Shown here piece by piece: positions 864 to 62,500 of a stretch of DNA of 64,000 bases; the stretch's first letter is position 1; every line of letters begins with the position of its first letter. The DNA is from Asterochloris sp. CNOR1. Its lineage: Eukaryota; Chlorophyta; Trebouxiophyceae; Trebouxiales; Trebouxiaceae. Both the position numbers and the translations under genes were made by a program. Location: the NCBI GenBank assembly GCA_963969365.1, contig OZ017747.1, positions 3,844,001 through 3,908,000 of the forward strand, written 5' to 3'. The notes under the pieces are model-generated. The model was not told the origin of the DNA, did no database searches, and saw only the letters and a program-made list of their open reading frames with translations.

Positions 864-3800
864 TCAGATCTCAAAATCCCAGGCTAAATTAATGAAAGAG
901 CCGTCGGGATCAACAGAGTTCACGTGGGAGATTCTGTAGCTCATGCCCTCCATCAGATTGGACAGCACCATGGACTTGTTCAGCAAGCGCTGACAGCAGG
1001 TTCTGAATCTCTGCTCGTCCAGGCTGGGGTCGCGCTGCAGGCGGCGCAGACGCAGCCGCTGCTCCACAGAAGTCCTGAGCTCCTCCAGGGCCTGCTTACG
1101 CCTCTGCAGGAGGCGCTGGACTGCTGCTGCCTCTGGTCCCTTGGACTGCAGGACGGACTCACTTGTCAGCAGTAGAGACAAGTGCTGCCACTCTGCTTTT
1201 GACCCACAGTACTATGGACACAGGGACAAGCACAGAGACAAGTGCTGCTATGCTGCTCTTGACCCACAACACAAGTAATGACTGCATGACATGCTTATCT
1301 GCTGAAGCACACGAACATACATGCAGCTTGAAGCTCTCATGTCTTGAGCTGTCAGGCACAGACAGGCAGCAAAGGCCAGCTGGTCATCAACAGGTGGGGA
1401 CACTGGCTTGGACAGCATCTGCTGCTGCACACGGCACTTGCCCACCTTGACAAAGGCCAGGATGTGCGCCACGGGCGTGTTGACTGCCGTCAGAAGAAAG
1501 CCTAGATCTGTGTTCAGCCTGCCAGAGCTTGCTGGGTCGCGCTGTTGCTGCGTGATGCACAGGGGCACCGCCTCAAGGCTGCCTGTCCTGCACGAACAGG
1601 GCACGCCTGAGGCAGAATCAGTGGTGCTGACATCAAGCTGTTGGTGCGCTTTACACTGGCTTCAAGGTGGGCAGTCTCAGCCTCCTCCAAGACCTTCCAT
1701 TGCCTGAAGTGCTGCATGAGCCGCGCCTTTGGCAACCACAGCATCAAGTCCGTGACACGTCCCGACCCTTTCACCACGCCCACCTCTGACAGCATTTAGG
1801 GCTACAACGCTTGTTTTGGGGTAGAGGGAAGGTCGATCATCTTGGCTGCATGCTGCTTATGCCTCACCAGCAACCTTATGACAAGACGAAACTGTACACG
1901 TCCATGAACGCAGACGTGCAGCAGTGGCACAGTTGGCTGATACCGGAACAGCAGCCGCCACCTCTGCTCATGCTCCTATCACATGCAGCATCCTTCACCC
2001 ACTGTAAGCAGAGGCTGGTGCTGTCAGCTTTGCAAGCGCAGGGGGACGCCAGCAAAGCTGCACATGATAACAGGGGATGCGTTTCCTGCCGCCACAGCGC
2101 ACCGCCAGGCTCCATGTCTAGAGCTGCAGCTGCCAGGGCCTCCAGCACACTCCTATACTCGGGTGCCAGCAGCATGTTCTGGTGGGTGTACACCATGGCC
2201 AGGCCCAGCATCCCCGCAACCGCAGACTCCAGCTGCTTCACGCGCTGCACCAGCTGGCGGCGCTCTCGACACAATTGGAGGTCAGCCCCTTGCAGACACC
2301 TGCAGGAACAGGCAGGCGGCATCAGCTAGTTTGCTAGGGCAAGCTCCGGTAGGTGTGATGTCTGTACAAGAGGCCATCAGGCGCCAGATGCTAGCGAGGG
2401 GCTGTTGTTGCATTCCTGCAGACGCAGGTCTGCTGCATGCAGTGAGGGCTGCTCACCCAGCTGCACAGCCATGCTATGCTCTACAAGTGTGCGGCAATCA
2501 GGACCAAACATGGTGGGAGGGGGTGCAAGGACTAGAAGTGTGCAAAAGATGCCAAGTTGCAGCCCCAGCTTGTGATGTAACTGGAGGTGGGCTTCCCGTA
2601 AGACTACGTGCTGCATACAAAGAGACAACCATGGGGAGCGCGCAGCCACAGCTTGATGCCAACTGAGGCATGCGCACTGCAGCCCAGCCCAGCTCTGCTC
2701 ATGTGCACTGCAGAAGCTCACTGGGTCCACTGCAGGGGGTGGGCATCCGTCTGCAGCCACAGGCTGCCCTGCTGGTCAATGCCTGAGCCTTCCAGCCCCA
2801 GCTGGATGGCCAGGCCAGACAGTTCCAGGTCTGGTGCTGCGTCCAGGGCTCTGGCCAAGGCCTCCAGCCACTCCAGCTGCTGGTGGGCGGGGGCAGCCTG
2901 CAGGGCGGGGCTGAAGCCTACAGACACCTGCAGGCAGCGTCCAAGCAGGGCGTGAGGCAGCGAAACGCTTGTTTGTCCGTTCAGGCCATTGTGCATCTGA
3001 TGCACCGGTGGCACTACCTTGCAGGGCTACTATCTCGGCTTCCAAGCGCTTGTTGGCCAAGCTGCACAGCCATACAGAGTCTGAGCGGGATTGCCAGCTT
3101 GTCGCTCAAGCTGGGCATGAGGGCAGCAGCCTAGATGTGACCCATTCCCATTCAATTTGGCACGAACAGCCAGGCAGCATGACGCTTGTGCAGCTGGGGT
3201 CTCCGGCTGCTCACCTGGCGCCCCATGCGGAGCGCAGTCCGCACCAGTGAAATCTGGTGGCGGGGCCCGTACTGAGCTGCCTCACGCTGCCGGCTCAGCT
3301 CGGCAGCTGCTGGCATGAACTCACGCAGTGCACGGGTGGCCCCGTGTGGAGCTCTGCCTAGGCCGCCTTCAAACTGGCTGCACAGGTATGAGGTCCTCAC
3401 TGTCACTGCAATCTGCTGTTAGCAAAGCAGCCATGCCATGATGTGCCGCACAGGGTACAGACGTGGGGAGCCCGCATGGGCTTGATGTAAGGCAACAGTA
3501 CAATTGATCTGAAACACCCTTACAGCGTGCCCACAGCCTTGCTGTGCCGCAAGCTTGACGAAAGGCAAGAGTCAAGCGTTGCAGGTCAGGAAGCTTGACA
3601 GTCCCAGCATGCTGAGTGAACATCAAAGTCTGCAAAGTGCTGTTGCCTCACCTCTGCAGGCCAACTGCCTTCCATGCTGTTGCCTCACCTCTGCAGGCCA
3701 ACAGCGTCCTAGTATGCTGTTGCCTCACCTCTGCAGGCCGACAGCCTTCATCAGCTTGCTGAGGCCCATCTGCGTGCCCTGGGGCAGATCGTCAGGGGCT

Positions 3801-4798
3801 GCCGGGTCCCGCCGTGCCGGCGGCGGCAGCGTGAGAGCGACCTTGTGCAGGCCTGCCGCGCCTGCCCCTGCCTGTGCAGCCTGCTGCTGCTGCTCATTCT
3901 CTATGTGGAAGGAGGGCGCGGCTGCCTGCAGGTGCCCAGCAGCGGAGCCGCTGTGTGCCGCCTGACCGTCTGCACCGCGTCCAGAGCTGGAGGCTTGGCT
4001 GTTGGAGGTTTGCCTGTCTGTCGGCTGCTGCTGGCTGCTGTCTGTTGGCTCTGTGGTGCTCTTGATCCAGAACACGAAGCTGTAGGGCAGGGCGGCTCGC
4101 CCCTGGTCACCTTTGTCCGCTGTAGGGCAGCAGCACTGGTCTTGCTAGCGGTGGCTGAAAGTGCAGCAGGGTGGCGGTCAGCTTCGAGGCAGCTGTGTAG
4201 CTGTACTTGCCAGAGCGACAGGCTGGCAGGGCAGACGGAGGCCGCAAGCTGCATGTCAGACAGGGCACTAGGGTGCCAATGGTGCAATTGCGATAAAGCC
4301 TGCATTTACAACGTTGCCAGTAGCACATCGCAGGGCAGCAGGATAGCAGCACACATGAAAGCAGCAAGTCGTTGCTGCTGTGGCTGGTAGTGCAGCAGAT
4401 AGGTGTGGGTGCAAGCAGCAAGCCCAACCCCTGGTGCAGCAGACCTGCTGCTAGGTACTCCTGCAGGAGCTTGAAGGAGCGCTCATTGGTGGCACGTGCG
4501 TCTGGATCCTGGAAGAGATCTGGGTGCACCTGCGAGGCTTGAAGGGGCCCTGTAAGATACAAATGTTGCGTGCATGCTGAGCGCATGCCACATGCATTGC
4601 ATGCTGCATTTGAACTCCAATCCTTCTTGCAGCACTGCAAACCTTCTTATAGAGATTTCGAAGCTGGTCCTTGAGGGAGGGACCCTGACTTGGGGCTGAG
4701 CTTACTGCTGCTGTGCCTGCCCACCACCTGCCTGCGTCGAAGCAAGGGTATTTAAGACATCCTGTAAGGCGTGGCAAAGCCCTGCAGCCCACCAGCAT
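864..4798 (-). CDS. TCAIM: TCAIM-like mitochondrial protein (DUF4460 J-like domain + DUF4461)
   Basis: Multi-exon gene on the minus strand. The N-terminal exon (start codon at 4798) ends in LRNLYKK, and the next exon begins VHPDLFQDP at about 4531, giving the degenerate J-domain HPD typical of DUF4460. It continues with ATNERSFKLLQEYL. An exon near 4090-3732 gives SFVFWIKS and a low-complexity Gln/Ser linker. Later exons (about 3400-1514) carry DUF4461-like blocks, such as GPRHQISLVRTALRMGRQ and AMVYTHQNMLLAPEYR. The last exon (from about 1160 to the stop at 864) has RLLNKSMVLSNLMEG and ends in WDFEI, closely paralleling the animal TCAIM C-terminus. The first ~30 residues could be a mitochondrial presequence. 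In animals TCAIM is mitochondrial; the function here is unknown. Middle exon borders were not all resolved. Confidence 0.78.
3637..3746 (-). repeat. Triplicated 5' splice site in the TCAIM-like gene
   Basis: The exon ending GLSKLMKAVGLQR has its donor AG|GTGAGG within 3714-3746. Two more copies of the same exon-end/donor block lie immediately downstream in the intron (3674-3705 and 3637-3666), 40 and 37 bp apart. All three preserve the core TGCAGAGGTGAGGCAACA on the minus strand, so three nearly equivalent donors are available. Confidence 0.85.
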
Positions 4799-5316: not shown

Positions 5317-5380
5317 TCATAGTCCTATGCCCGTGCATTGAGGCTACGGACTTTAAATTTAAATCATCATCATCATCCCA
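5317..5380 (+). repeat. Dispersed repeat, copy A (upstream of recombinase remnant)
   Basis: About 60 bp starting TCATAGTCCTATGCCC and containing ATTGAGGCTACGGACT, then an AT-rich stretch and (ATC)n. A second copy lies at 13044-13103, about 7.7 kb away, with only a few differences over the first ~40 bp. A small hairpin (GCGCT-AAAA-AGCGC, 5409-5422) follows. Direct orientation in both copies. Confidence 0.8.
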
Positions 5381-5442
5381 TGCAACACCCTGTGACCTAA
5401 GCCCTAAGGCGCTAAAAAGCGCGCCAAACCGGATCGACCTTC

Positions 5443-7340: not shown

Positions 7341-7915
7341 CTGCAGTGCCAGCACTTCTCACGCAAACCACCAAACCCAGGGGAGGGGGGGACTGATCTG
7401 GTTTTCAGAGGTGGTGATTGGTTGACAACAATCTCGATCAGTCAACATGTGATGAGCAACAGGAACTCACCAGCTTCAGTCCAATGCAGATCTTAGCAAT
7501 GGTGGTTCTGATGATGTAGGTCTCCCATGAGCATAAATGATATTGAGGGGCTCAATGACATCGAGGCTGTCAGCTCAGCAGGCTGTCTGCTCAGCTGGCT
7601 GAGCGCTTGTCTGAATGTCTGACTGTGAGTATCAGACATGCAGATAGATTGTTGACAGGCTTGGACGGTGTCCTGCATCTGCATATGTTTTTCGTGTTGC
7701 ACACTGGGTGAAGGGAAACGCTGACATGCACTCTTCACCAGATGACGTCAATACATACCCATCTTAGTACTTGACTCACGCTTGACGTGGCCTCCCATGG
7801 CAATGTTTGTTACACGCACCTTGTGTAGGTGTATGACCCTCCTGGCACCCTCACGCTGATCTTAAATGAGGTAAGCTCTTTCTGTCACTGAGCAGTCCTT
7901 TTCATGCTGCTCTAC
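7341..7915. other. Gene-poor stretch between recombinase remnant and SAM50
   Basis: About 575 bp with no recognisable exon. A short splice-flanked reading GTLTLILNE near 7835-7870 could be a last scrap of the recombinase gene, but I cannot support it. Confidence 0.3.
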
Positions 7916-10900: not shown

Positions 10901-12733
10901 CAAGAGACCTAGCCTGAATGCTTTAAGCCACCGTTAGGCAGCACACAACATCTCATTGCGCCCAGCCGGCATCAGCCAAAATGACAACTCGTGCCTCCTG
11001 CTGGCCGCGCACCACACCGGCTCAGGTCAACAAGCTGTCCCAGCTGGTGACTGAGGAGCTGCCCAACTCAAAAGCGCCAGTGAGCTTGCTCTGGCTAAAA
11101 GGTGCAGCCGGTGCATCAAGGCAGACTGCCCCACCACCCTCCTCCCCTGGGTGCCAATGATCAAGCTCACGCAGCAGTCATGCAGCAGCCCCACTCACGT
11201 GGACAGGGTGGTTGAGGCCCCCCGGAGTTCCTCAGTGAAGGAGCTCTGCTCCTGGAAGCTGCGCTGCTGCTGCAGGACCTGCACCTCGCCCTGCACGTCC
11301 GAGCCACCCAAGCGTGGTCGCCGCACCACGACTGCATACTCGCTGCGCCTCGCGCTGCCAAACTCAAACTTGAGCTCCACCTGCTCTGCATAGCCTGCCA
11401 GATTCTGGGCGCCCGCCGTTCCCTCGAACGTCACTGCAGGGCAGGCAGACAGCGATGGCGTGCGCCCCTGTGCGGCAAGTCCCTGCTCGGTGCCGTCACC
11501 GTCTTTGCAGGGCAGGCAGACACAGTTGGCAAGCACCTCTTGGCGGCAGGTCCCTGGCCGGTGCCCTCAAACAACATCACTGCACAACAGGCAGGGTAGT
11601 GCAGCACAGAGGCTGAGGTCATGCCCACCAGCCTGAGCACCACAGAATCAGGGCACTGCCACCAGCAAAAAGGCTGCTGCACAATCTGCAGTCCAAGGGC
11701 TGCATGTGGATCTTCTGGAAGCCATCAGCTAGGAACCCCAAGGGCAACAAATAAAGCAGCAGACACAATAGGTGAGCCTGACTCTGCACGAGTCGGGTTT
11801 ACAACATCACATGCCCTGCACGCCGCATCCACAAACCTTCAGTGTCTGTTGCAAAGGTTCCAGCATGCGCCGTCCAAGGGGACTTCTCCACGCAGTTGAC
11901 CAGTACAGTACAGCTGTCAGGCCGTGCCTGCACTGCAGAGCAGGAACGTCAGGCCTCCTACCTTCTGGGGCGGGATCGCCCCTCAGCTAGCTCACTGGAT
12001 GCTCTGTTCTAGCGGCCTGCACACCTGCTGGCTTTAATTTATGCAGCCTGCTGTGTGTGCATGTGCCCCAGCATCTGCCGCACACAAGGCCATGCTGAAA
12101 GACTTGGGCACGTTACGAAGTGGTTTCACAGCAACAGGTGATTGGCTGGCACCTCCAAACAGGCATGTTGCGTGTACACTGGATGGTGAAGAGGTCCCTG
12201 TGCATGCTGGCAGTCTTGCTGCATGCCTACAGCAGCGATTACGTGCGTGCTCGTGTCACAACACATCAATCAGCATGCCAGCCACCATTGTCTTGTGCCG
12301 GCCCCCCCAAGTCCAGGGCAGGAGCTGTGCATGTTCTTGATACAGGCCATGACCCACTGTGCCTGCCAGCAACATCACTTACCGGATGCCCAGAGTCCAG
12401 CACTAGCTCCACCCCCTTGAACACGCCCAGCCCCTCCAGCGCCTCCTGGCATCGCAGCAGCTCATCCTTGACTTCATCTAGTGTGTGCCCCTCATCAGTG
12501 AGTTGCTGTAGTTCCCTGGAGACCAGGTACAGCTTGGTTCGCTGCAGACCGTTTATGACAACCTGCAGACCATGGCACTCGGTGAGTGGCTGCCATAACC
12601 AGATGCAGCTCAGTGAAATGTGCTGGCCTACCTTGTAGATGTGCAGAGGCTTGTCCTTCACTGCATCATACAACGGGAAGTCTTCTATGCCCTGCTCCTC
12701 CTGCATTGCTTGATGGTGATCCAGATCGGCCAT
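7916..12733 (-). CDS. SAM50: SAM50 / Omp85 family mitochondrial outer-membrane assembly protein
   Basis: Core of the SAM/TOB complex, which inserts beta-barrel proteins into the mitochondrial outer membrane. The first two exons (12632-12733 and 12383-12562, in phase) give a POTRA-like domain: VVINGLQRTKLYLVSREL, then LGVFKGVELVLDSGHP. An exon near 11440-11201 starts the barrel (AVTFEGTAGAQNLAG ... VELKFEFGS). The exon from about 9460 carries LPDGTLLLSGTLGAMLPWG and the Omp85 signature SDRFWLGGVGTVRGFRVRG. A block VGGTLCWSGGAA at about 9030 follows. The exon ending at 8122 reads GHVFGNGG ... SWRWSV. The last exon (8044-7916) reads GTGLIWPTNLGTIEINF and ends KTGMQFGISPAMY, a beta-signal-like C-terminus. 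The OEP80/TOC75 paralogues are less similar at these blocks. Some internal exons (for example 12.3-11.45 kb) are unresolved. Confidence 0.88.
9431..9779 (-). repeat. Intronic copies of a SAM50 exon 5' edge
   Basis: The exon beginning near 9470 on the minus strand has GTGGTCCACTGAGGTGGC. Related blocks occur upstream in the transcript at 9580-9618 (TGGTCCACCAAGGTGGCAAG), 9655-9699 (GCAGTCCACAGAGGTAGCAG) and 9733-9779 (more diverged, keeping GTGGCGGGGCTGGATTC). Spacings are about 75-150 bp. Some copies keep a TGCAG acceptor-like end. Confidence 0.7.
11405..11600 (-). repeat. Tandem copies of a SAM50 3' splice site region
   Basis: The acceptor CTGCCCTGCAG and the start of the AVTFEGT exon (around 11416-11446) are echoed at 11490-11517 and 11559-11597, about 75-80 bp apart. 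They share TGCAGGGCAGGCAGACA and CGGTGCC blocks on the plus strand. Confidence 0.65.
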
Positions 12734-13108: not shown

Positions 13109-14072
13109 ATGGCATCTTGGTCAATCTGCCCACAGGCAACGGGTTCTCCAGCGGCAGCCACCGGGCATGCATCCACCAGGTGCACCCTGACCGTGACAGC
13201 AGCCCAGAAGCCACAGCAAAGGCCTGACAATATGCTGGTCTCAGGCGTCGTGTCAGGCCTCACAACTGCCCTGCGTGTGGCTGGCATTAGGTAGGCACCA
13301 AGCTGCAAGCTTGCTTGGTGCATGAGTGGTACAGCTGACATGCCACCTTCCGACCTTGCAGGAAATCCGTGGCCCCCGATGTGCTGCAGCAACCTGCCCT
13401 TGAGCAGCCAGTTGCTGAGGGTGATGTTGATGGAATGCTGCAGGCGCTGCATGCTGAGTATGCCAACAGCTATTTCATCACAGGTCTGGCGGACCAGGCT
13501 TGGCTGATAATTTGAGCCGGCTGATCATGGTGAACCTGCTGCTTGCTGTAGGCGTGGTGTCTGAATGCATTTATGAGCCGGACTGCGAGTTTGCTGACCC
13601 CACTGTGAAGTTTCGAGGGGTGCAGCGCTACAAGAACAATCTGCAGGCGAGTCACCGCTCCCAAGTGCTGTTGCTGCTAGCTGGGTCTGCCGCTGAATCT
13701 CTCTGACTGTGGAGCTGCCTGGCATGCAGCTGCTGGTGCCATTCCTAGAGCACCCAGAGCTGAGGCTGACCTCATTACGCTGTATCAATGACACGCAGCA
13801 ACCCACCCTCATCAAGGTGCTGCCCAATACCAAGCAACAAAGCACCGGCCTGAATGTTGAGCAGATCCCAGACCAGCTGCTTTCTGCAGGCGGACTGGAC
13901 ACTGCGTAGCACTGTAAAGGTGCCATGGCGCCCCTTTGTGGATGTTATAGGAGCAACAGAGTATTCACTGAATCCCCAGCAGAATTTGATTGTCCGGCAC
14001 GTAGAGAGCTGGAACATCACGGCCTGGCAGGCTCTTGGGCAGCTGCTACGCCCAGGAAGATCTGCTGTATGA
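13109..14072 (+). CDS. DUF2358 (SnoaL-like) plant/algal protein
   Basis: Five exons, all in phase: 13109-13290, 13362-13483, 13552-13646, 13730-13816 and 13890-14072, coding for 222 residues. Introns are only 68-83 nt. The protein shows the DUF2358 pattern of land-plant chloroplast-predicted proteins: YFITG, IYEPDCEFADPTVKFRG, QRYKNNLQ, LLVPFLEHPEL, WTLRSTVKVPWRP, VRHVESWNITAWQALGQ. The first ~60 residues are Ser/Ala/Thr-rich and uncharged, as in a chloroplast transit peptide. The third intron is GC-AG (AG|GCGAGT at 13647). The domain is an NTF2-like cone fold; its biochemical role is unknown. The start was chosen because it is the first ATG of the open exon-1 frame after the repeat. Confidence 0.88.
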
Positions 14073-15089
14073 CCAGGCTCTGCACACCTGTGTGAGACGG
14101 GCTCTGTGAATGTGACGGCAGAGCACAAGACTGGGAGGGAACTCCGATGGGAGTGGGGCGCCTGTCATAGGCTGCTGCTGCGGATTTGTCAGTCATGTGC
14201 TGATACTGATGGACGGCTGCAGGGCAACCATGCTCCAGAATGGTTCTGGAGCATGCAACAGTTTGCGCTGAACAAGTGGTGTTATCTGATACATACAAGC
14301 TCTCACACGGCCGACCTGGTCTTCTGCAGCTGCACTGTCAACTCAGATTGGGGGAATCTCAATGTGAAGGTGGATATGGAGGTCTCTCAAGGTGTATGCA
14401 CCTGCCAGCGCAGGGAAGCCTTGAAGACATATCAAGAGCCATTTGCGGCACCTTGCCAGCCAGAAAGCTGGCTCCCACCACAGTGAAATTGCTTCATCCT
14501 CACCTGTGCTGGACTGCTGGGAAGCATGTTGAGGGGCTGGCCAGGATAGATGCTTGCCAAGCAGCATGTCCTTCAGGTGGCCGCGCTGCTTCAGCGTCAT
14601 ATCTGTTCTCTCAAAATAGCAAGTGCACTGGGCATGGGTGAGACACACTACTAGGCAAGGTGACTGGTCGCTTGATGCCATGTCAGGGCCGAGGCCTGCG
14701 CCCTCTGCTCCCGGTGCATTCTCCTCCGTCCCATGCAGGTTATCCCCCGTAAGCGCAGGTTGCAAGCATGATGAGCATGTACCCGCACTGTCTGCTGCAG
14801 GCTGACAACACAAGAGGAAAGTCTACATTGTCATGCAGACTTGAGGTCAGCAAAGACGCTCAGGCATGAGGCATTGCGCACTGCCTGTAGGCATGTCTTT
14901 GGCAATCGATATCAGATCTGGAGTGTACCAGTCCAGACAAAGCAGCAGTTTCTGAGAGAGCCTGAACAGATCCTGATGGGACACATTGCGCTTGACAGGC
15001 ATAATGACCTAGAAGTCAACATGTCCCAGGCTGTTGACCCTACATTGTGACCTGCGGGGCCAGCAGCCTGACTAGACACCTGATTAGGC
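14073..15089. other. Intergenic region between DUF2358 and endopeptidase genes
   Basis: About 1 kb with no supportable exon. It includes a perfect 11-bp inverted repeat, CATGCTCCAGA / TCTGGAGCATG, with a 5-nt loop at 14229-14255. The promoter of the downstream endopeptidase gene is presumably near 14.8-15.09 kb. Confidence 0.4.
14229..14255. repeat. Perfect 11-bp inverted repeat
   Basis: Arms 14229-14239 and 14245-14255 separated by ATGGT; it could form a hairpin in the 3' UTR of the DUF2358 transcript or bind a dimeric factor. Confidence 0.6.
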
Positions 15090-18000: not shown

Positions 18001-21000
18001 TGCCTGCACTGCCTGCCTTCCTAAGAAGACTGGGTGTCCGGCACAACGCTGTTGCTGGCTGCAGGTGTCCACGGGAGAGGTGTCTGTCATCGGCGCGAGC
18101 CGCGGCTACACAGCAGTCTCACCATCCCCTGATGGCAGATTCCTGCTGGTGGCGTGGCTGGAGCGCCCTTTCTCCTTTGCTGTGCCCTGCGGCAGGTTTC
18201 CCAAGACGGTGCAGCTGTGGACACGGTAGGTGTACAAGCTACAATCTGTGAATGGGCTGTCTAAGGTCTCCTGCATGCTGGCTACTGAGCCGGGGCCCCA
18301 GAGCTCCTTGCTGCATGGACCCTGCACTCAGTGGGACCGCCCCACTGCGGAGTCAAGGGCTCAACAAGCCAGGGTGGGGTGTAGGGAGCTTGCAGTGAGC
18401 TTGCAGGGGAACTGCTTATTGAGCTCTGCAGAGGGAGCATCCCTGATGAATAGACGTGCAGGCTGGCTCAGGCCTGGCCCACATGCATGGTGTCTTAGGC
18501 GCACCAGCTGTGAGGCGGGGGCGATGCATGCCAGGGTCTTAGCCGGCGTCTCCTGTCCACCCCTCTTCAGGCGTGTGCAGGGCCGGCCCGCCGCACAGGA
18601 GCTGGCGGCCAGGCAGATCATCCAAGATGGTGTTCATACCTGGCGCGCCACTGCCTGCAAAGGAAGTGCAGCTGCCATCGAAGCGGCAGGCAGGACATCC
18701 AAAAAGTAATGACATCCAAGGAGGCACTGCGCTGCCTGCAGGGATGGGCAGCTGGTGAGGGAGGTGGCCCACCTTCCCCTGGCTGAAGACATCCCCATCG
18801 CCTTCAACAGCTGCAGGAAAGGGCCCCGGGGGATCAGCTGGCGTGATGACAGGCCGGCCGAGCTCACGTGGACTGAGGCTCAGGTGGGCAACCACCTGCT
18901 ATGTGCTCAGAGTAGAGAACCCATGCTGTGTGCTGGCCATGGGCTGCATGTCTGCTAGATGGTCTCCACAGCAGCCGCAGGAAGGGGGCCCGCAGTGTGG
19001 GGTGCTGCCATGACAGGGTCAGGGTCAGCTGCAGGAAGGGCCTTGACATGGCAGGCCAGCTGAGGCTCCTGTGAGCACACGAAGGGAGCCCATGCTGTGT
19101 GCTCGCTGTTGGCTGCGTGTCTGACCGCTGGGCACCGGGTCACCTGCCTGCGGGCACACACTGCACCCCTGAGACCAGCAGCCTGGGAGGTAAGTGGTGT
19201 GCAGGCCGACAGGCTGGTACTCAGCTGGGTGACCACCGTTGGCTAGGCGAACATGGCCTGTGCTCACAGCAATGAGTGAAAATCACGATGCACGACGCAG
19301 AGAGCAACCAGCTTCGCCTGCCTCGCTCACTGTCTTGCCTAGACCCATCTGTGTGTCAGCAGTATGGCGTCAGCAGTGTGGTGTCAGCAGTGAGGTGAGT
19401 CTAGAGGGAGATCGTGCTTTTGAAGGGACGTCGTGCACTGAGCCAATGTGTCGTAGGCATCTGCAGATGCAGACCCTGTGGCCACCCTGCAGGATGGAGG
19501 GAACCCCAGGGTGGCAGCCTCCCCCAGGGACATCGTGTACACCATGTCTGCAGAAGTGGCAGGCAACGGCGCTGAGCCGCAGCCGTTTGCAGAGACTGAC
19601 CTCAGGTGCACCCCTGTGTAGGCCGCCTGGCACAAGCACATGCGTTTCCGCACCTGTTTTGCACTGCTTGGCTGATGATGCGCTGCTTGGTGGGATCTGG
19701 CATACCTGCCCCCAGATCATAATCGCTGCCCCCAATCAGCATTACGTACGGCGGGTCAGGTCAGTGCAGGCGTTGGCCCAGCGAGGCTGAGGAAAGCATG
19801 GGTGCCCAGTACAGAGACTGGCGCCCCCTGCAGTGTGGCACAGGCCACTGAGTACTGCACTGTCTGCAGTTGTATGCAACTGGCCTGGGCCCATAGGGAG
19901 CCCAGGCTCCTGGAGTGGAAGCAACCGTCCACCACCAAGATGGCCCACTGAGCACAGCACAGGCCACTGATTGCTGCTGTGCCTGCTGCAGATGCCTAGG
20001 GGTGGCTTGGGGCAATGAGGAGCTAGCACTGGTGTATGAGACGTGGTACAAGACGCGGCGCAGCGTCATTCACACCATCAACCCCAGTCGCCCTGAGGAT
20101 GGCATGCAGGTGCTGTCCGACAGGTGAGCTGGGACCTCTGACGCTGCTACTGGGCATGTGAGTGCAGGCTGGCAGGTCGGCTGTGAGTGATGGTGTGGGG
20201 GCTGCCAATGGCATCCCAATCCTCAGTGAGCTTAGAGCCAGGCTCCTCTGAGGAGGGCATGCCATTGCTGCAAGCCGAGAGAGCTGGGAGCCATGCTGCT
20301 GCACCCGCTCTGCGAGGGTCCCATGACACCTGTATGCAAGGCTAGCTGTGAGCTATGCTGTGGCTGCTGCCCATGGCATTTGAGGCAGCAGTGAAGCCAG
20401 TTGCGCTGAGGATGGCATGGCATCCTGCAAGACTGGTGAGCTGGGGGCACTGTTGCTGCTGCTGCCCTGGAAGCAGAAGCTGAGGGCTGCCATCTCATCA
20501 GCTGTGGACACTCCCGTTCAGCACTCTACATAATCACTGCCTGTCACCATGAGTCATGCCAGCATGTCTAGAGATGACAGGATTGGTCGGATTTCAGCCT
20601 GTCTTGCGAGAAATTGCGTGCCATGTGCCTGCTGTGCCTGCAGCTGCATCATATTCACAGCCAAGGTTCTGATCTCTGATTGTTATGCCTATGCAGGAAC
20701 TTTGAGGACGCTTACTCAGACCCTGGCAGCCCTGTGACCCGGCGCACGCCCCAGGGCAGCTTTGTGCTGGCCATGGTGGATGACCAGAAGAAGCTGCTGA
20801 TGCAAGGTGGTTACGTGCCTGCTTGCGATCCATGTGTGATGACCAACCAATTTGGTGCAGTCTGCACGCAACTGCTGCACCTGGGAGTCTGCCTGTCGCC
20901 TGCATGTAGCATGCTGCGTGAGGTGCTGTTTAGGCAGGACAGCAATTGCAGAGGGCAGCTGCTGTGTTGGGGACCTGCCTGCCTGCTGTGTGGCGGACGA

Positions 21001-24000
21001 GGTTGGTTGGTGCTGCTGAGCCGCCCCTGACAATAATACAGTGGCAGGCTGCAGTCAGGCATACGAACATTCTAGATGCAACAGGCAAGAGCGCCAATTT
21101 GCTGAGGCCTTTGCTGCTTGAGGCAGATCAGCTAAGCCGTAGCAAGCCAAAAACATATTCGATCTGCCTTTGTGGCAGGCACCCAAGTGCACATGCTCAG
21201 GATGCCAGCTGCAGCATGCCACTTGTCTCAAGGACTGCATGTTGCTGCCCGGACTGCCATTGCTCAGGGCAGAACATGTTCTGGGCTCGTCATCTTGCTG
21301 GGGCACAGTGACAGTGCTGCAGCTGGCCTGACATGTATCCTCCCCTGCCCTACAGGTTCTGGAGCCACGCCTGAGGGTTTGAGACCCTTCCTGGACTTGC
21401 TGGATGTGCAGACCAAGGAAACCACGCGTCTGTGGCAGAGCAGCCCGCCCTACCTGGAGTCGCTGGCCAGCCTGCTCAGCGATCGTGATGGCCAGACCAT
21501 TAGGTGTGCTCCATGCCTGTGCTGCTGTGCAGCAGCCTCTGTCAGGCTTGGGGAAGCTTGAGCCAAGGGGCTTTTGGCCTGCATTGTACATCAAGGCCAG
21601 CTGCCATACCTGGTGTTGCTGGGCAGCCCGCCCAGCGTCCGCATTGGCCAGACCTTCAGGTGCGCTTGCATCTGTGAGCTCTGGTCCCTGCCTAGCAAGG
21701 GCCCAATACAGTTCACACAGTGGGCTTGCTCATGGCTCTGCTAAGGACTGAGTCTCCTGGACCGCTCTTGTGAGTGCATTGCACAAAGCACCACGTGAAG
21801 CTGCTGGGCTGCTGCTTGGCGCCAGTGTTTGAGGCTATCATTATAAGCCCAAGGGCCATGCCCACGGGGTCATGTTTGACTGCAGGGCTGTCTGAGGCTG
21901 TGATACAGGTGCTGACCAGCCTGCATAGCTTCCTGCAGCAGGGTTGTACTTCCAGACAAGCTGGGCTGGAGTTACAAGGCTGGCTGTCAATGTCTGAGCT
22001 GCTGTGCGGTCTCTTGAATACTTCATATGCAGGCTGCAGAGGCAGTCACAGCCACTTCTGAGGCTGACTGCAGAGAATCTGCAGCTTGGGCGTCAAAGCA
22101 GGCATGTCTGGACATGCCCTTCAGGGCGACACTTTTGCCCATCTGTGGCCCATCCAGTTGGACAGACAAACTCCGGCTGCTGCCTCGCAGGCTGGAGGGG
22201 CTGTCCATGCTGATGTCGCGGGAGACCAACCAAGAAAACCCTCAGGTCTTCATTAAGAGCTGGCCGCAGGGCACCCAGGGGCCTCCCACAGAGCGCCAGC
22301 TGTCCCGCTTTCCCCACCCACACCCCACCCTCAAGGACCTTCAGAAGGAGGTCATCAGGTGAGCCCATTCAAGGTGTATCCAGTTGTATGCAGGAGTGCG
22401 CGCAACACTGCATTAGCAAGTGAAAAGTTTGGTGTGACAGCCAGGTGTCAGAAACTTGTGACAGAGGGCACCTCTGCTATAGAGCAAAGCAGTCATGTCA
22501 GCGGCCTGCTGCATACTTTGAAGACCCAGCTGATGGCCTGGTGAGCTCGTGTGGGCCAATCTGTGCACTAAGCTCGCGAAGGCCATGCCCCTGGTCCTGC
22601 ACCATGAGAGCCCGGCAGAAAGCCTGTTGGCCAGATTCTTCAGCAGGCTGACAGCATCGGCGGTGGGGCCCTCACAACCCAGTCACTGGCTGCGGCTCAG
22701 GTACAAGAGGGCAGATGGCGTGGACCTCACGGCCACGCTGTACCTGCCGCCGGGCTACGACCAGGCCAAGGATGGCCCCCTGCCCTGCCTGCTCTGGGCC
22801 TACCCCAGGGAGTTCAAATCCAAGGTGGGGACTGCTGCAGCCTTCCACCCTGGGCCACAGACCTGCTGCTTGCTTTGTGGTGCTGCTGTGTGGTGGAGGC
22901 GGCCGGCCAGCAGGGCAAGTGTTTGAACATGGCGGTCAGCCTGCTGCAGCTGTTTTGAAGATGCAGTGGATCAGAAGCGCCAATCCCTTGCATCTCTGCC
23001 AGCACCATCAAGAAGCAAAGCAACCAAGTCGGGTAGCCCATGAACTCATGACCTTGGCCTTGCAGGACGCGGCTGGCCAGATGCGGAAGTCTCCTTTCTC
23101 CTTCAGCGGCATTGGCCCCACCTCGCCCCTGCTGTGGCTGGCCCAGCGGTATGCCATTCTAGATGGCTTCTCCGTGCCCATCATTGCAGAGGGGGACGAG
23201 GAGCCCAATGACACATATGTGGAGCAGCTGGTGGCTGGGGCTCAGGCAGCTGTGGAGGTGAGCATCTGAGCCACATCTCCTGTGCTGCACGCATGCACGG
23301 GTCCTAGACGGCAGCCTGGGCAGCCACCAGGCAGCAGCACAGGCAGCTATAGTGATGTGTTCCTGGAAGACAACATTTCGTATATCAAAAGAAAAGCAAA
23401 GGTGCTGCTGCAGACCAGGCAGCCATTGAGGTGGGAATCTTGAGCCGCATACCCTTGTGCTGCATGAGTGGCAGGGCACCTGTGAGAAGCCTGTGCACCT
23501 GGCAGGAACTGCCACTTTAGCATCCTTTGTGGCAGCTGCTGGCAGCAGAACACGGGCCATGGAGGTGGGTTGGGCCGCCTTGCAAGAGCTGGCGACGTGG
23601 GTGCGCTCTGGGCAACTGTGGGGGTGGCTGAGCGCCGACGTCGAGGAGCAGCTGGTGGCAGCGGCCCAGGCAGCTGTGTGGGTGGCAAACACAACCTGTC
23701 CTGCAACACAAGGGGATGCTGTGGATGCGGCAGCCTGGGGCAGGCTGGGCAGGAGAGTGGATGATGCAGGCCACATGGGAGGCAAGTTGGTCCAGGATGT
23801 GTTCAGCGTCTCGTGCTCTGGGGCAGCTAGATGAGTTTGCTGATAAAGCTGGCAAGCTCTGTGGCTTTGGATGTGGGGGGGCGGGAGGTGGGGGGACAAA
23901 GTGACTGTGTCTGGCTATGTTGTGAAGCAGCCTCTGCCGCCTGGGAAGGCTTGAATAAGGCCTTTGATGCAATTGTAGAGGTGCTGTGCATCTGGCTGCA

Positions 24001-25332: not shown

Positions 25333-28300
25333 TCATTGTAGGCCCCACACCAGCAGGGTCTGGTGCAGAGGCGCTGCCACGGCTTCTGCCAGTACTGCAG
25401 CCCATCTCTGTCTCTTGTGATCTAGATACTGCACTGTTTCTGCTGCCTTCTGCGCCTGGTTGGTAGCCCTGTAATGCTCAATGCTGCTCTCCAATGCCAG
25501 AATGTGGCTGGGCCGGTCATTGACAGCACCGGACAGGGTACAGGAAGCCCCAAACATCTGCTGCGCCCCAGAGGAATCATTTCCGGAGTGCTGAAAGGGC
25601 GCCAGCACCCGCAACACCTGCAGGCCCCAGACCACTCCAACTTGCAGGACAGGCACGGTCGCACACTTGTTGAAGCCATAGTGACCCTTGAAGTGGCTTC
25701 AGAGGCTGTCCACATAAAGCAGTCGGGGCAATTGGGGCTACTAAGTTTGAGGCAGCCTGGCTGCGCCCCACCTGTGACATCATCTGGTAATTAGCCAGGG
25801 GCCCATGCGCCTGATGGAGAGCCTTGTTCAGCAGCAGCTTCGCATCCAGCTCCTTGCCTTGAAGGGCCAGGACGCTGTACCCCGCCAGCACAGCACCCCC
25901 CCTGCAGCAACCAGGCAGATCTGATGAGGCCTGGCATCAAGCACCAGCAAGGGCATCAAGCTGCGGGTGGCCGGCACGGCAGCCCTCTGCAACAGCCCAG
26001 CAGGCCGCGCATTGATGCTCCTGCCAATGATCTTTGCAATTTGGCCAGCATAGATGCAGAGAGCATGACCAGCATCAGCCTGAGCTGGAGCACCCTGCGC
26101 ATATCTTCTTTTGCTGCACATTTCCAGCAGACAGTCAGCAGATGTTGTGCTCAGCAACAATCAACACCAGCAAGCGTATAATAAACTTGTGGGCTTGTGT
26201 TGCATCTTGCGTGCTCAACCGAAGGATGTGGGTTGCTCATCAGCACGGCCAGTCTGACAAAGCAAGATGCAGGACGTTATGTGCCCACCTGTCTCCATGG
26301 GGCAGGTCAGCCTTGACCACCTCATAGAGCCCCTGTTCCTGCAGGAGGTCCACTGCTCTGCTGAGGGCATCTGGCTCATCGCTGGCGCACAGTGTCAGGG
26401 CAGCATTGATGGCTGCCAGACGGGCCTCTGAAGGGGGGCCCTGCATGGCCGCCTCAAAGTGCTGCACTGCCAGCGCGAGGTGGCCTGTCACTGCAGCATA
26501 GTGGCCTGCAGGCACAAAACAGGTGAGGTCACCAGACATGTGGGCGGCCACACAAGAGGTGTGTGCTGCCCTGTGGATTGTGTTAGGCCGAGGGATTGGA
26601 ATCCCATGTGTAGGTAGGCTTTGGAGCGCATGTCTCAATATCTGCCTGGGCATTGCAGGTGCGCGCAGACTGAGGGCCAGCTTGTGGCACTGATGGGCCC
26701 TGCCCCATGCAGCTCAAGTGCCTTTGACAGAGAAGGCTGCTGGGGGTGTACATGTTGACGCGCGTGCGCTCCGGCCATCGCTACTCACAGGGCCCATCCT
26801 CGGCCTTCACCCAACATGCTGGGCACACCGGTCAGCCATGTGACTTGCAGCTGAATGGTGCCCATTGGCTGGCCGCAGAGGACCACAGTGGACAGAGCCT
26901 CAGCCAGCATGCCGCACATGCAGGTGGTGCCTGCCATGCCCACCAGGTACGCACAGCACGTCCACGAAGTGCCCATCCTTCAACCAGCTGGGCAATGTGC
27001 AGACGATGCCCAGCAGGTTCTGAAGCCCTACAATTGACAGCCTCACTCAGCACGCTGCACAGGCGAGTGATGCCTGCCTAGCCCACAAGGTTTGGCAGTA
27101 CAGCACACTGGTTGCCCACGCTTTCACACAGCTGGCCCGGGTATGGGCAGTCAGGTCGTTCCCAACAGGCTCCAACAGGCCATTTTGATTAAAACACAAT
27201 GACCCGGCATGTTCCCCAGGCAGATGTTGGCAGCTCATCAAATTCCCGTGCTTCATCATGCAATGTGCAATTGGAGCATGTGCGCCAGCACATGCCAAAT
27301 CAGCAGCAGAGGCTCACCCAGCACGCTGTGCAGACGTGAGGTGCCTGCCAAGGCCACAAGGTTGGGGAAGGCTGCGCACAGGTCGGCCATGGCTGCGCAG
27401 CCTTGCTGCGCCAGCACCAGCTCGCACTGGGTGATGTGGATGAGGGCAGCCTGCTCGTGGGCTGTGAATGCCAGCTTGAGCAGCTGCTGCTGGTCGTACA
27501 CTGTCTGGAAGTCCAGCTGACTCTCCTCGCACTGCAGGGAGTATATGAGTGCTTGCTGTTCAGGTATGACAGCTGGCATTTGGGCTGCTTGCTCTGCTGG
27601 AGGTTCATGATAGGTTTCTGCAGGCTACATTTCAGACGCTGTGAGACGCTGCCTGCCACATAGGCGTGGCAACCTGGCATGCTTGTGTTCTCGCGTTCCT
27701 GGCCACAGTTGCCAAGAGAGAGGGTCATGTGACATCCAGCAATGGGATGCTGGCAGGTGCACGCACACACCTGGCAGCAATGCAATCCATTTAGGGCTGC
27801 CAGCAACCTGAGATGGTAGAGGGCTTTTGCAGCCACACAGGGCATCGAGAGCTGTAGACTTGACACCTCACCTGGTGCAAGCCGGCTTCCCGGCACTGCT
27901 GCTCCAGCATGGCCTGAGCTGTGGCCAGGTGCCGCAGGGCCGCTTTGAACTCCCCCTGTGGGCGGCACAGCCCAGCGGCCACGATCTCCACCAGTGCCAG
28001 CACCGTGTCACCCGGCAGCCACTGGTAGGCCCATGGCGCCAGGTAGGCGCCTTCAGCCGGCTCACTGGCAAGGGGCTGCTGCTGCGGCGTGGGCACCTGC
28101 TGGGCAGGCAGGGGGGCCTGTCCAGCATGTTGCTGTTGCTGCTGCGGGCTGGGCTGGGCCTGCCCAGGGTGTTGTTGCTGTGGGCTGTGCTGAGCCTGCC
28201 CAAGATATTGCTGCTGTGGGCTGCGCTGAGCCTGCCCAGGGTGTTGCTGCTGTGGGCTGGCCTGCACAGGGGCACGCGGCTGCTGCTGCTGGGAGCCAGC

Positions 28301-31127
28301 CTGGTGGGCTGGTGTCCGCGGCAGGCGGGCCACCATGGCCTGCAGGTGAGTGACGGCCTGTGGCGTGTTTTTGAGGGCGCCTGTGCCTGCACAAGCAGCA
28401 GACAGGCCTGCTCGTGGGGTGGTGGCAGGCTGCTGCCATGCTGGGCCCCAGGTGTGTGACTGCCTGCAGACTTCCTCTGAGCGCGCTTGTGCATGCACAG
28501 GGAGCGCGCTTGTGCATGCACGGGCAGCATACAGGCCTGCTGGCTTATGCAGCATTGGCAGTGTTCTCCTGTTGCTTCCGTGCTTGCTGGCAAATTCCTG
28601 GCCTGAGTGGCAGTCAGATGCATGGCCAGCCACATGCACGGGGCCTCCAGACAGGCATGCCCAACCGCTTCTGGAGCGTTTGCTGGCACAGCATGTGCCA
28701 CATTGCAATCCTGGCCCGACATCATCAAGTGTGCAGGGCCGGTTGTCACTTTTCCACATATTTCTTGTACTCCTAGCTGGAACATCAAGCCCACCGACAG
28801 ACTTGGCAGAGCATGAGCCCCCATGGCAGGCACATGTCCACTCCTCTATACATCCGGAGGTCGCAGACAGACCTGGCAGGGTATGGGCTCAGGCATCCAT
28901 AATCTGCAGATCATTAGTCCTCTTGGAACTCAGAGCCCACAGACAGACATGGCACAGCATGGGCCCAAACAAGTCATCATCCTCAAACGCACTGACCTGG
29001 CTTCACCAGGTGATTCAGCTGTCCCTGCGCTATCTGGCGCAGCACCTTGAGCAACCCTAGATGCAGCTGCAGCTGGGCGGTGGCAGGCGCCTCCGGTTGC
29101 TGAGCCTGCAATGCCTGCACGCTGGCATCGGCTGCGCCCTCCTGCTGCTGAGCTGCCACTGCAGCTTCAGGCGTGCCGGTGGCCACGTAGGTGGCCAGGC
29201 AGTGCTGGAGGTAGGCCACAGCCACCACAGCCTGCATGTGAGGGAAGTTTTAGCTTGAGTTCAGAAAAAAGCCGACGGCAGCGCAGGAAGGCGAACATAG
29301 AGACAACTACCTGCAATCGAAGGAGGGTCTAGCTCAAGGACAAGCCAAGGCGGCGCAGCACTGGGTGGCAGCCTCCACAGCCTGCATTTGAGGTGAAGTC
29401 AGCTCAGCATATTGACCTAGCTGAGGTGGAGGAAGATGTCAGCATGCTGCAGTTTCTGGCCAATCAAGCCAAGGGGCAAGGATGCAATTTCATGCAGCAA
29501 TCTGAGCAGGTAAATGCAGCAGTCCTAGTCGTGATCATGCTGTGAGGTGTCAGATTACATCAGCTCACTTTGTGCAGCATAGCAGAGCTCACATTGGACA
29601 GACCCACAGCCCCGTTGACCATAGCTTGGCGGTCCATGCAGATTGTGCAGCACTGATGGGCTGGCCAGACAAACATAGTCCCTGATGTGCTGCACAGTCT
29701 AGTTCTGTGCCCAGCCGTGTGCAGCCGCCAACAGCACTGATCTAAACAAAAGGCTGAGGGGCTACTCATCATGCGCTTACGCTGCTGGTAGGTAACTCAC
29801 ATTTCAAAGGTGTTCACGGTTGGGCAGTTGGCCAGCTCAGCTGGTCCCCTGGCCTCGCTGCAGCCAGAGTATTGTCTGGCTGCCCCAGCAGCTGAAGCTC
29901 ACCTGATCTTCTGGGCCTGAATCAGCGGCAGCTGCAACAGCCTGCTGCAGCCGGGGCACTATCCCTGCCTGATTCTCCTCCTGCAGCTCATAGTCCGCCA
30001 GCCGCAGCAGGAACCAGACTTTCCAGCGCGCCAACATGCCCCTGCAAGCAGTGGAGGTCAGTGAGAAGGATCTCACAGCAGTACTCGGCCAGGCGTGCCC
30101 TGCCAGCAGCAAGGCAGCCTTGCAGAGATGGGCTGCTCAGGGCTGCGCTCATCAGAGCCAAAATGCCTCAGCAGGCAGCAGGGCTCACTCCCGCTGGGGG
30201 GTCTTCACAGGAATGCTCAGCAGTGCGGAATTATACAGGCACAAGAGTGATCCTGCAGGCAGACAGGCTCACTTCCACACAACAGGCTGCTCTGGGCTAT
30301 GCCCCATCGCGAGAGGCCGGCACCAGCTGCTGCCACAGGCCATCACTCAGGTGCCTTGAGTGCTTGCAGGCAGGTTGCGCCTATGATTCTCTTGGGGGTT
30401 GCACAGCTGCACTGGGTGTGGCTGACAAGCTCAGTCCTGCTGACAACCTCAGTCCTGCAAGCACAACACCCCGAGGAGGCAAGCAGCATCTGCTTTTGGC
30501 TGGGATGCCGCTGCTTTCTTGCAGATTCTGCCTGTGCAGGGCGCCCTGCAACAGGGCTGCACGCACCTCTCAGCGGTCTGCTGCCCCGCATCGCAGGTAA
30601 GCAGACCCTTCTCATGGGCAGTGCGTTGGGTCTTGGTGTCGTTGAGATACCTGCTGCAAGTGGCCAGGCGTGCCAGCACCTCGCACTTCAGGCAGTACAG
30701 GTATGGCGTTGCACTCAGCAGCACCACCTGCACAGAGTGGGTCACTGTCACCTGCTCATGGAATGAGCTCAACATGCAGGCAATCCCATGCATTGGCTTG
30801 TATAGACTGTGTTGTGCAGGCTGCCTGCTGCCCAGGCAGCTGGCCATGGCCAAGGCAGCCTGCAAGGTGGTCCGAGTCACAGCTCTCATCACAGCGCAGC
30901 ATGCTATGTGAACTCACTGCATGATTCAGATGCAGTGCAGCCTGCTCCAAACATCTGGTGTGCTCCATGAGGAGGCCTGCGAGCTGCAGCCTGGCGCAGG
31001 CATTATCTGCTGGCTTGAGGGAGGGACTTCTGCAGATGGCTTCCAGACATCTGATTGCCGCCAGTGGTTCCCCACTCTGCACCAGGCCGCTGGCCAGCAG
31101 CCTCAGGGCATCTGGCGCAGGTTGCAT
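25333..31127 (-). CDS. MAU2: MAU2 / SCC4 cohesin-loading factor
   Basis: TPR-like superhelical partner of SCC2/NIPBL; the pair loads cohesin onto chromatin. The start at 31127 opens with MQPAPDALRLLASGL, then AAIRCLEAICRSP and RLQLAGLLMEHT, as in plant SCC4. Further blocks: MLARWKVWFLLRLADYEL (about 30.0 kb) and AVVAVAYLQHCLATYV (29.2 kb). A long Gln/Pro-rich insert lies at 28.05-28.3 kb. Then come YQWLPGDTVLALVEIVAAG, AALIHITQCELVLAQQG with RLHSVLGE (27.3 kb), GHLALAVQHFEAAMQGPP (26.4 kb), YSVLALQGKELDAKLLLNKA (25.85 kb) and the C-terminal NQAQKAAETVQYLDHKRQRW near the stop. The block order matches animal MAU2 to the end. It stops 106 bp from the convergent CGEP stop. An additional upstream exon cannot be excluded. 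Confidence 0.88.
26897..27369 (-). repeat. Three copies of a MAU2 exon end with donor
   Basis: The exon end RLHSVLGE and donor (27312-27369) recur downstream in the transcript at 27041-27096 (about 79% over 56 bp) and 26897-26952. Shared core on the plus strand: CAGCACGCTG ... TGCCTGCC ... CCACAAGGTT. Confidence 0.8.
28151..28258 (-). repeat. 36-bp coding minisatellite in MAU2
   Basis: Three consecutive 36-bp units with boundaries at 28150, 28186, 28222 and 28258, plus partial flanking copies. Each codes SPQQQ-[HY]-[PL]-GQAQ-x in the MAU2 frame, so the array extends a Gln/Pro-rich loop by multiples of 12 residues without shifting frame. Confidence 0.85.
28786..28967 (-). repeat. Intronic ~73-bp repeat in MAU2
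   Basis: Three copies at 28786-28821, 28859-28891 and 28933-28967 share ACAGAC followed by TGGCA-G-GCATG-GC on the plus strand. They do not match a neighbouring exon that I can identify. Confidence 0.6.
29219..29405 (-). repeat. Copies of a MAU2 3' splice site region
   Basis: The acceptor CATGCAG and exon start GCTGTGGTGGCTGTGGCC (near 29235) are echoed at about 29365-29405 (AATGCAGGCTGTGGAGGCTG on the minus strand). A more diverged copy lies at about 29310-29360. The unit is about 70-75 bp. Confidence 0.65.
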
Positions 31128-31507: not shown

Positions 31508-40752
<9,245 letters not shown>

Positions 40753-59500: not shown

Positions 59501-62500
59501 CCAACATGAGTGTCATTCTAGCAGGCCTTGACTTTAAAGGAGGTGCAGTGACAGTGCCCTTGTTCCTGCATGCAGGAGGGTCACGCAACAGCAACCGGTC
59601 GGTGCTGACGCGGCTGCACGCGCTGTCTGAGGCTGAGGCAGAGCTGGGGAGGCACAGGCGTGTCCAGGATCAGGCACAGGAGCAGCTGCGCGCTCTTGCA
59701 TCTGCTGCTCAGAAGCACAGCAGGTAAGCAGTCCTGCCAGGCTGCAGGACAGGGAGCACAGCACAGCATTTTGCATGTCGCAATCCAGAATCAGCCAACA
59801 GTGGAAGCTGATGGATGAAACTGCCAGGCTGCAGAGCCAGTGGTCGGCCAGTCACAGGCATGTATGCAGTAGCCTGTGAGCACCACAGGTAGGTGAACCT
59901 GGACTATGAAGGGAGGAGGCACCGTACAGGCAGCAGGTGCCATTGATCTGGGGGTGCAGCGCTTTGCAGGGTCAAGCGGCTCTGTACTCGCTGGTCTGAT
60001 CTGCACAAGGCTGGCGCTTCGTCGCAGTGTGACTCACACAAACAGATGGCCCCACCATCATGTCTTCCTTGTCTGCCAGGTTGAAACAGGAGCTGGATGT
60101 CAAACAGCATGGGCTGGGGCTGCTGCGTCAACGAATTGCTGGCAGCGAGTCTGCACAATTGGCAGAGGCTGTGAAGGCCTCAGAGCAGGAGCTGGCTGAG
60201 GCCAAGGAGGCTGCCGCTGCTGCCCAGCAGAAGAGGAAGGACATGGTGAAGGCTGCTGAGGTGTGGCCATCGATGCTATGAGCTGCTGGCAACGTATTGG
60301 GCTGCCAAGCCTTCCCGCCTGTTGCTGGAAATATCTGCATGCTACAGGGTGCTTCTGCCAATATGTGCATTGCCTGCAGGATCTTGAGGGCCAGATTGCC
60401 AATTTTGGAGACACCAAGGGGAAGCGCATTCAGGCTGCCCAAAACAAGGTGGCAGCAGCCAAGACCACGCTTGAAAAGGCAAAGTCGGCTGCCAAGACGG
60501 CAGCGCAGGCGCATTTGCAGGCTGTGGCTGAAGGGGAGGCGGCTGCTGGGGAGCGCAAGTCGCTGGCTGCACAGCTGCAAGTCACGCAGCAGGCCATCCA
60601 AGGTACTCGGCAATGTGATTTGATGTGTGTAGGGTATGAGCAACCTGCAGCCCTGCTGGGCAAGTTATGCTTAGCGAATGGCAACTAGGTGCTTGCATGC
60701 TGGAGATGCCAAGTTGAAAGGCACAATCACATGCCAGCACAACTTGTTCATCAGCAAGACTGTATGCCTGGTGGTAGCAGTGCGTCACAGCCCTGCAGCT
60801 ACTCATGTCTTGAGTTCTAGATTCAGGCACATCACTGTCCAACATATGGCAGGTTTGTAGAGGCAGCTGGAGATCTTGGGTGACACGCAGAAGTACAATG
60901 CCTGTGCACACATCACCTCGTCTACCGCACTGTTTGTGGGCAGGCAGCTTTGGCTCTAGGAGCGCAGTAAGCGCTTGTTACTGGGGGCCACATGGTGCAA
61001 CCAGTCCTCAGCCAAGGATCACTCAGGAGTCTGCCTGCATACCTGAAGGCGGAGGGAGCTCAATGCGTGTGTTGACAGCATCAAAGAGACTGTCTTGTGG
61101 ACATACAGAGCTGGAGGTAAAGGTGGTGGCTCTGGGTGATGCGGTGGCGGCTGTCAGCGGGAGTACGACTGTCTGGTGTTCTTACAGAGCTGGAGGTAGA
61201 GGTGGTGGCGCTGGGTGATGGGGTGGCAGCTGTCAAGCGGGAGTATGACGCCCAGGCTGCCCAGCTGGAGGCCCTCAGAAAGCGCTTGAGGGACTGCGAC
61301 GGCGAAATTGGCGCACTGGTGCAGGAAAAGGCAGCCCTGGCGCAGCAGGCTGCGGATGCAGGGCTGAACAGAAAGAAGACTGAGCACAAGTGAGTGAGCC
61401 AGGGCTTGCTGCACTGCACTGCTGCGTTTGGAGAAGGCAGCCAAGCGCATCATGTTCTGGATGTAGAGTCACATGGGCAGGAGACGAAGCACAAGTAGGT
61501 TGGGCCTGCTGACCTGCTGCCTTTCAGGGTGGCAGCCCTGGCGCAGCAGCATGCAGCTGCAGGGCTTTACCACAACAAGACGGAGCAGAACAGAGTAATC
61601 TTGGGCTTGCCGCCCAGCTGTCTTCAAAGGAGGCAGCCGTGACTGTGCTTATATACTGTGGCTGCTGAAATGCAAGCATAGCCAGCAATTTGCTGTTGGC
61701 ACCCCCAATTGCTGAGCGCGTGTTGCTTGGCGAATGCTCCGGCCTCTGTCAGGGCAGACACTTGCCACAGCTGTATCAGACGCATGCTGGCACAGCCTCT
61801 GAACACCCATGCCACAGCCAGATGAGCCAGCTGAAGGCGACCATATGCACCCTGGCTGCAGGCTCAGCAAGATGGAGAAGGATATCCAGGAGTCTGCAGA
61901 GCTCTGCAAGAAGCTGGAAAAGGTGAGACACCCTGCAGCCTTACGGGACACAGAGGACACAAGTCTGCCTTGTGAAGCTACCATACTGCCGCCCCTCTTG
62001 GCAAGCTTTGGCAGAAAGATTTACATGTGCAGCCCCTGCGTCACCCAGAGGTGTTGCATGTTCCATTGTCATGAAACGCCTTCAGTGTCGCTCAGCTGCC
62101 TGGCTGACGCAGCGCATGTCTATCCTGTTGCCATTTGTGTCGTGAGCAGGAAATGTCAACCTACCTGCCCTCACAAGCCGCGCTGCGCTGTGTGCAGGAA
62201 TTTCCCTGGATAGTGACAGAGAAGCACTTCTTTGGGCGACCTGGCTCTGACTTTGACTTTGAGGCACACGATGTGGACGCAGCCTTCCGGGAGCTGCAGG
62301 GGGCGCAGGACTCACAGCAGCGCTTGGCCAACAGAGTCAACAGGAAGGTGGGTCACAAGAGCTGCCCACATCTTGCATGGCTGGCAATGGAACTCGCCAG
62401 CAACACTCCTGCTGCATCAGTAAGCGTGTTGGGGTCCCTCCCTGTGGGAGAGTGCATTCCTAAGCTGTCAAGTCATTCACTAGCTGGGGTGACCTCCTTT

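Follow-up and report, generated by a model that had tools for sequence, protein, structure and literature searches.

Introner elements add intron sequence as related copies spread over many genes. Short tandem DNA duplications are said to have been studied as a class of mutation by Vaughn and Bennetzen in 2014, and internal gene duplication, reportedly described by Gao and Lynch in 2009 as able to cover exon plus intron sequence, appears to be the closest related work. Here, we compare such systems with a stretch of 64,000 nucleotides from the green alga Asterochloris sp. CNOR1 (contig OZ017747.1, C2 in our numbering, positions 3844001-3908000; hereafter the window), in which some introns carry copies of their own exon edges together with the splice site. 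At a probability of roughly 0.78, these pairs of copies were left behind by short tandem duplications of the ordinary type and require no special intron-lengthening machinery. They would represent a known kind of duplication and not a new mechanism, and they merit a genome-wide count. As in internal gene duplication, the copied unit sits inside a gene, and both exon and intron can be part of it, but the usual outcome here is a dead copy in an existing intron, neither a new exon nor a new intron.

According to one report, no short insertions are more common in the human genome than small tandem duplications, which also contribute to genome expansion (PMC8355091). The pairs described here are likewise small, local and direct, but they are mostly old, decayed copies and are read from one genome. 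A second report describes how introns already present are duplicated along with the exon sequence next to them, and how introns are gained by tandem duplication (PMC4974935). In the AGGT-type model of Hellsten et al., as presented there, the tandem duplication does not alter the protein that is made, and the same holds here; however, the new intron arises from exon sequence, with the donor copy matching the acceptor copy, an arrangement that we find in 1 of 147 typed pairs. For Drosophila, an intron gain through regional tandem duplication has been described (PMC2891723), in which duplicated exonic sequence becomes intronic, as in our pairs, but at new intron positions, whereas existing introns lengthen here. 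A literature search over titles and abstract openings returned no report of junction-centred duplication in a green alga, which is weak evidence of absence.

Exon edges copied into their own introns

The assembly comprises 56.4 Mb in 21 contigs, 18 of which measure 2.0-4.5 Mb each. Our sample of 284 kb adds to the window 22 further stretches of 10 kb each from this genome (L002-L019, L022-L025). Genes were modeled with an ab initio hidden Markov model (HMM) gene finder, trained from scratch on the 284 kb without RNA or annotation. It predicted 636 introns with a median length of 208 nt, of which 632 enter the intron-level counts, and learnt (C/A)AG|GTGAG as donor and TGCAG|G as acceptor signal. 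In these models, the acceptor is a signal of unusual strength (T 0.91, G 0.90, C 0.96); GC donors make up 6% of the predicted donors. Pairs were detected by gapped self-alignment at offsets of 20-500 bp, with a main score cut-off of 32, and controlled with shuffled sequence, other regions, the complement, length-matched mispairing of introns and exons, and rotation.

Local duplications stand far above these controls. The window contains 31 ungapped pairs with a score of at least 14, against 0 in each of three order-3 Markov shuffles. Across the 284 kb, 120 gapped pairs score at least 36, compared to 0 after shuffling, 1 in the other-region control and 0 in the complement; at score 32, we found 171 local direct pairs and 4 in the other-region control. 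The window is not denser in pairs than the rest of the sample, with 26 pairs in 64 kb against 94 in the remaining 220 kb at a score of at least 36. The copies that we detected make up 5.6% of intron bases, 6.1% of exon bases and 1.6% of the bases predicted to be intergenic.

At a score of at least 28, an intron's own exon edge is copied inside 50 of 632 introns, whereas ten length-matched mispairings averaged 0.9; when the exon edge was compared with an intron of the same locus that does not adjoin it, 3 of 621 matched. Clean splice-spanning copies occur in 41 of the 632 introns. The initial annotation of this DNA had reported exon-edge duplicates of this kind, and their excess over mispairings, the control that it had proposed, bears it out. 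It had also placed them in most genes, which is overstated: at least one junction-spanning pair is present in 28 of the 64 predicted multi-exon genes of the sample and in 6 of the 12 predicted genes of the window.

We could type 147 of the 171 pairs, the 24 without a predicted intron nearby being set aside. In 25 of them, the upstream copy has a live donor and the downstream copy lies in the intron (D>i); in 22, the downstream copy has a live acceptor (i>A). The others are intron-intron (33), exon-intron (20), exon-exon (5) or mixed (42). The duplicated unit of the D>i and i>A pairs thus contains a splice site and sequence that was already intronic, as the initial annotation had it, and the site used in the gene models is the outer one. 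The period that it gave, 37-160 bp, is too narrow, since these 47 clean junction pairs span 31-497, with a median of 144.

The two copies differ at 24.2% of third and 17.2% of first codon positions, as would be expected if coding constraint acts on the live copy. The dead copy retains GT in 16 of 25 D>i pairs and AG in 15 of 22 i>A pairs. For these 31 of 47 copied splice dinucleotides, the overall identity of dinucleotides in these alignments would predict 30.4. Copied sites are therefore kept at the neutral rate, so that spare sites are neither retained nor purged, and a supply of alternative splice sites, for which a mechanism had been proposed, is a by-product at most. The median length of introns with clean junction copies is 420 nt (303 nt after subtraction of the period), compared to 193 nt for introns without any pair. 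This fits a local lengthening of introns, part of the difference being due to the greater room for a match in long introns.

Four duplicated units were searched against the 56.4-Mb genome (E<=0.001), and each matched its own place only; own decayed partners were not returned separately, and this search excludes close relatives only. An origin from introners, which resemble the pairs in adding intron sequence, was rejected on these four of four units without another genomic match and on the mispairing counts (0.9 against 50). The initial annotation had likewise seen no dispersed family.

Placement of duplications around splice junctions

In the explanation that we favor, short tandem duplications with units of roughly 25-400 bp, presumably generated during repair or replication, would land anywhere in a gene. 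A duplication within coding sequence would alter the protein and would usually be lost. One that is intronic or straddles a splice site would be tolerated as long as splicing takes place at the outer copy of the site, which removes the inner copy along with the intron. Selection on splice choice would keep the outer copy in service, held by coding and splicing constraint, and the inner copy would decay freely. Since one copy is constrained, exon-anchored duplications would remain recognisable for longer than purely intronic ones, and junction pairs would look enriched. If this simple account is true, it describes a one-way route to longer introns, in which splice-site duplications can persist if it is the intron that takes up the extra copy. 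Copies of exon edges, being long-lived because one copy is constrained, would then be fossils of small duplications, from which old duplication rates could be measured in a single genome, and the conspicuous pairs would be explained without a special mechanism.

Junction-spanning pairs account for 87 of the 171, compared to 53.6 +/- 6.1 by rotation, and none of 300 rotations was as high. We rejected this excess as sufficient proof of junction targeting, because rotation ignores the slower decay of exon copies and the fact that a surviving junction duplication needs its second copy in the intron. Simulations were run with uniform duplication, accepted only if the outer copy stays in place, and with indel-rich decay, over 330 settings of which the best 30 were kept. 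They were compared with 100 observed pairs, the 42 mixed and 5 exon-exon pairs of the 147 being set aside. Among the best 30 of the 330 settings, the proportion of junction pairs in the sum of junction and intronic pairs has a median of 0.53 (range 0.35-0.72), and the observed proportion is 0.59. When a splice-signal constraint is added (11 settings), the share of junction pairs rises to a median of 0.40, with 0.47 as the highest value; the observed share is 0.47, with a sampling error of about 0.05 on 100 pairs. Once the outer copy is constrained, uniform placement nearly reproduces the observed shares, and splice-site targeting is therefore not required, although a small excess is possible. 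Of the lengthening mechanism put forward in the initial annotation, the local lengthening fits the data, and the dedicated, splice-directed machinery is not supported.

Several results weigh against the explanation that we favor. Among high-confidence introns measuring 200 nt or more, 41 of 288 splice-centred windows contain a match, exceeding the intron-interior windows (30 of 448), with exon-interior windows at 11 of 275, and the splice-window excess remains when the introns are limited to those with strongly coding flanks. Predicted intergenic windows contain a match in 8 of 277 cases, compared to 89 of 1042 for intron interiors, which a purely neutral process would not predict; in this comparison, the windows depend on one another and few of them are intergenic. 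Without the splice-signal constraint, the junction share never exceeds 0.37 in the best 30 simulations, and their exon-only share has a median of 0.45, against 0.47 and 0.20 observed. With the constraint, the exon-only share is still 0.36, and 0.24 at its lowest. The fit also depends on indel-rich decay and on the omission of very young copies. Finally, a dispersed-copy model came near in the first scan, with a best distance of 1.43 compared to 1.34, but this rested on only 20 detections and the next distance was 1.72.

A duplication process targeted to splice junctions, tied for instance to transcription or to co-transcriptional splicing and lengthening introns, would account for the excess over rotation, for the richer splice windows, for the poor intergenic windows and for a junction share lying at the top of the simulated range. 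We nevertheless consider it unlikely. The constraints on outer copy and splice signal bring uniform placement near the observed shares, and the donor and acceptor sides are equally affected (25 and 22 pairs). In addition, none of the 47 clean junction pairs is at least 95% identical, compared to 6 of the 33 intron-intron pairs, and no current targeted activity is thus seen. It is just as doubtful that tandem duplication in this lineage came to prefer splice junctions, perhaps via breaks linked to transcription or splicing, and that introns swallowed the adjoining exon-edge copies during an earlier phase that later slowed down.

Orientation and age of the copies

Within 500 bp, 171 direct and 6 inverted pairs are found at score 32, and 91 and 0 at score 40. 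This near-exclusive direct orientation points to tandem duplication. About 64 self-overlapping inverted, hairpin-like matches also appear at score 32, a figure obtained without a chance control as the difference of two counts made with different chunk sizes.

A gap of more than 20 separates the copies in 134 of the 171 pairs, which, together with the nearness of the dispersed-copy model at its best setting, would suit a templated insertion, in which break repair copies and pastes a nearby template instead of duplicating in tandem. Such an origin is very unlikely, as it is expected to yield both orientations, yet inverted pairs are nearly absent, and the young pairs are the abutting ones. An identity of at least 95% is found in 6 of 22 abutting pairs (gap of at most 5) compared to 2 of 117 gapped pairs (gap above 20), and one of at least 85% in 16 of 22 compared to 36 of 117. 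Judged by these identities, the abutting pairs appear young and the gapped pairs old. Faint similarity continues beyond the aligned ends, with length-matched combined p values of 0.012 for D>i (n=22), 0.0005 for i>A (n=17) and 0.007 for intron-intron pairs (n=18), single pairs being mostly not significant (median single p 0.25-0.44). This is consistent with copies that once abutted and later decayed, and the gapped pairs, too, would then be of tandem origin.

Near-identical gapped pairs are scarce (2 of 117 at 95% identity or above), as if duplication had slowed recently. Steady birth predicts that young copies are at least as frequent as old ones, and all of the best 30 simulations needed the youngest copies to be omitted. 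Either the rate of duplication fell or early divergence is fast. A constant-rate process is not supported, nor is the continuous process of the initial annotation, given the identities of both the clean junction and the gapped pairs.

That the pairs are an artefact of gene models or low complexity is highly improbable: the models are ab initio and made without RNA, but next to nothing is found in the shuffled, complement, mispaired and other-region controls, and the splice-window excess survives the restriction to strongly coding flanks. Intron birth through AGGT tandem duplication of exon sequence, from which the initial annotation had rightly set the pairs apart, is scarcely credible and fails as a general account, with a donor aligned to an acceptor in a single one of the 147 typed pairs (in L003, offset 90).

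Genes and copies in the window

A Pfam scan of 10 of the 12 predicted window proteins supports the family of seven of the eight genes named in the initial annotation (DUF4461/DUF4460, Omp85, S9 peptidase, Rpb3/Rpb11, Duc1, protein kinase and SMC), and gave no match for the gene named MAU2. Pfam reaches the family level only, and the exact names SAM50, CGEP, YAK1 and SMC2 are those given earlier. Duplications had been attributed to all eight genes. Junction-spanning pairs with a score of at least 32 are present in six of them: TCAIM (1), SAM50 (4), CGEP (4), the MAU2-named gene (6), YAK1 (4) and SMC2 (2). At score 32, RPB11 has no junction-spanning pair; it contains an intronic 27-bp repeat (score 33) and a short acceptor match (score 28). 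The DUF1769 gene has none at this score either, its donor and acceptor matches scoring 29 and 28, where chance alone would give about 0.2 matches with a score of at least 28 in sequence of that length.

On the minus strand, the TCAIM-like gene (DUF4461) carries about three copies of an exon end with its donor at 3638..3745, with a period of 37-40 and the outer donor used (D>i; score 100, 93% identity). The Omp85/SAM50-like gene, on the same strand, has a duplicated intron end with acceptor and exon start at 11429..11569 (i>A; period 71, score 65, 79% identity), the unit having no match elsewhere in the genome. In the S9-peptidase (CGEP-like) gene on the plus strand, 20084..20464 holds a donor-spanning copy at offset 313 (D>i) and a second pair within the intron at offset 165 (scores 53 and 64; 81% and 77% identity). 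Further along the same strand, at 21447..21666, an exon end with its donor is followed 156 nt on by a second donor-bearing copy (D>D, e>A; score 58, 78% identity), which could be the short exon of the gene model or, alternatively, a dead copy. One gene model, at 13232-24915, fuses a DUF2358 domain with the S9 peptidase and probably joins two genes.

The MAU2-named gene, on the minus strand, has three related copies across one intron and both its exon edges at 26896..27389 (offsets 143, 271 and 414; scores 51, 60 and 42; 75-79% identity), the middle copy having no match elsewhere in the genome, and two acceptor-spanning pairs at 28320..28541 (i>A; offsets 106 and 129, scores 41 and 50). A 36-bp coding repeat at 28097-28271 of the same gene gives a glutamine/proline-rich protein repeat. 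On the plus strand, a single intron of the protein kinase (YAK1-like) gene bears a donor-spanning copy at 36415..36577 (D>i; offset 107, score 53, 82% identity) and an acceptor-spanning copy at 36820..36937 (i>A; offset 85, score 41, 85% identity). The SMC gene, also on the plus strand, has its acceptor and exon start duplicated with a period of 79 at 61088..61249 (i>A; score 112, 89% identity), with the outer acceptor at 61188 in the model and a unit without a match elsewhere in the genome. At 61330..61613, the end of an exon of this gene and its donor are copied 201 nt downstream into the intron, where the copied GT is lost (D>i; score 71, 77% identity).

Elsewhere in the genome, TTTAGGG repeats are found, among the matches listed, at both ends of contig C1; together with the plastid-type S9 peptidase named in the initial annotation, they suggest a green alga. 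In L012, near 7693-7768, a recent exon duplication has exactly repeated an exon with both of its splice sites (100% identity at a period of 106).

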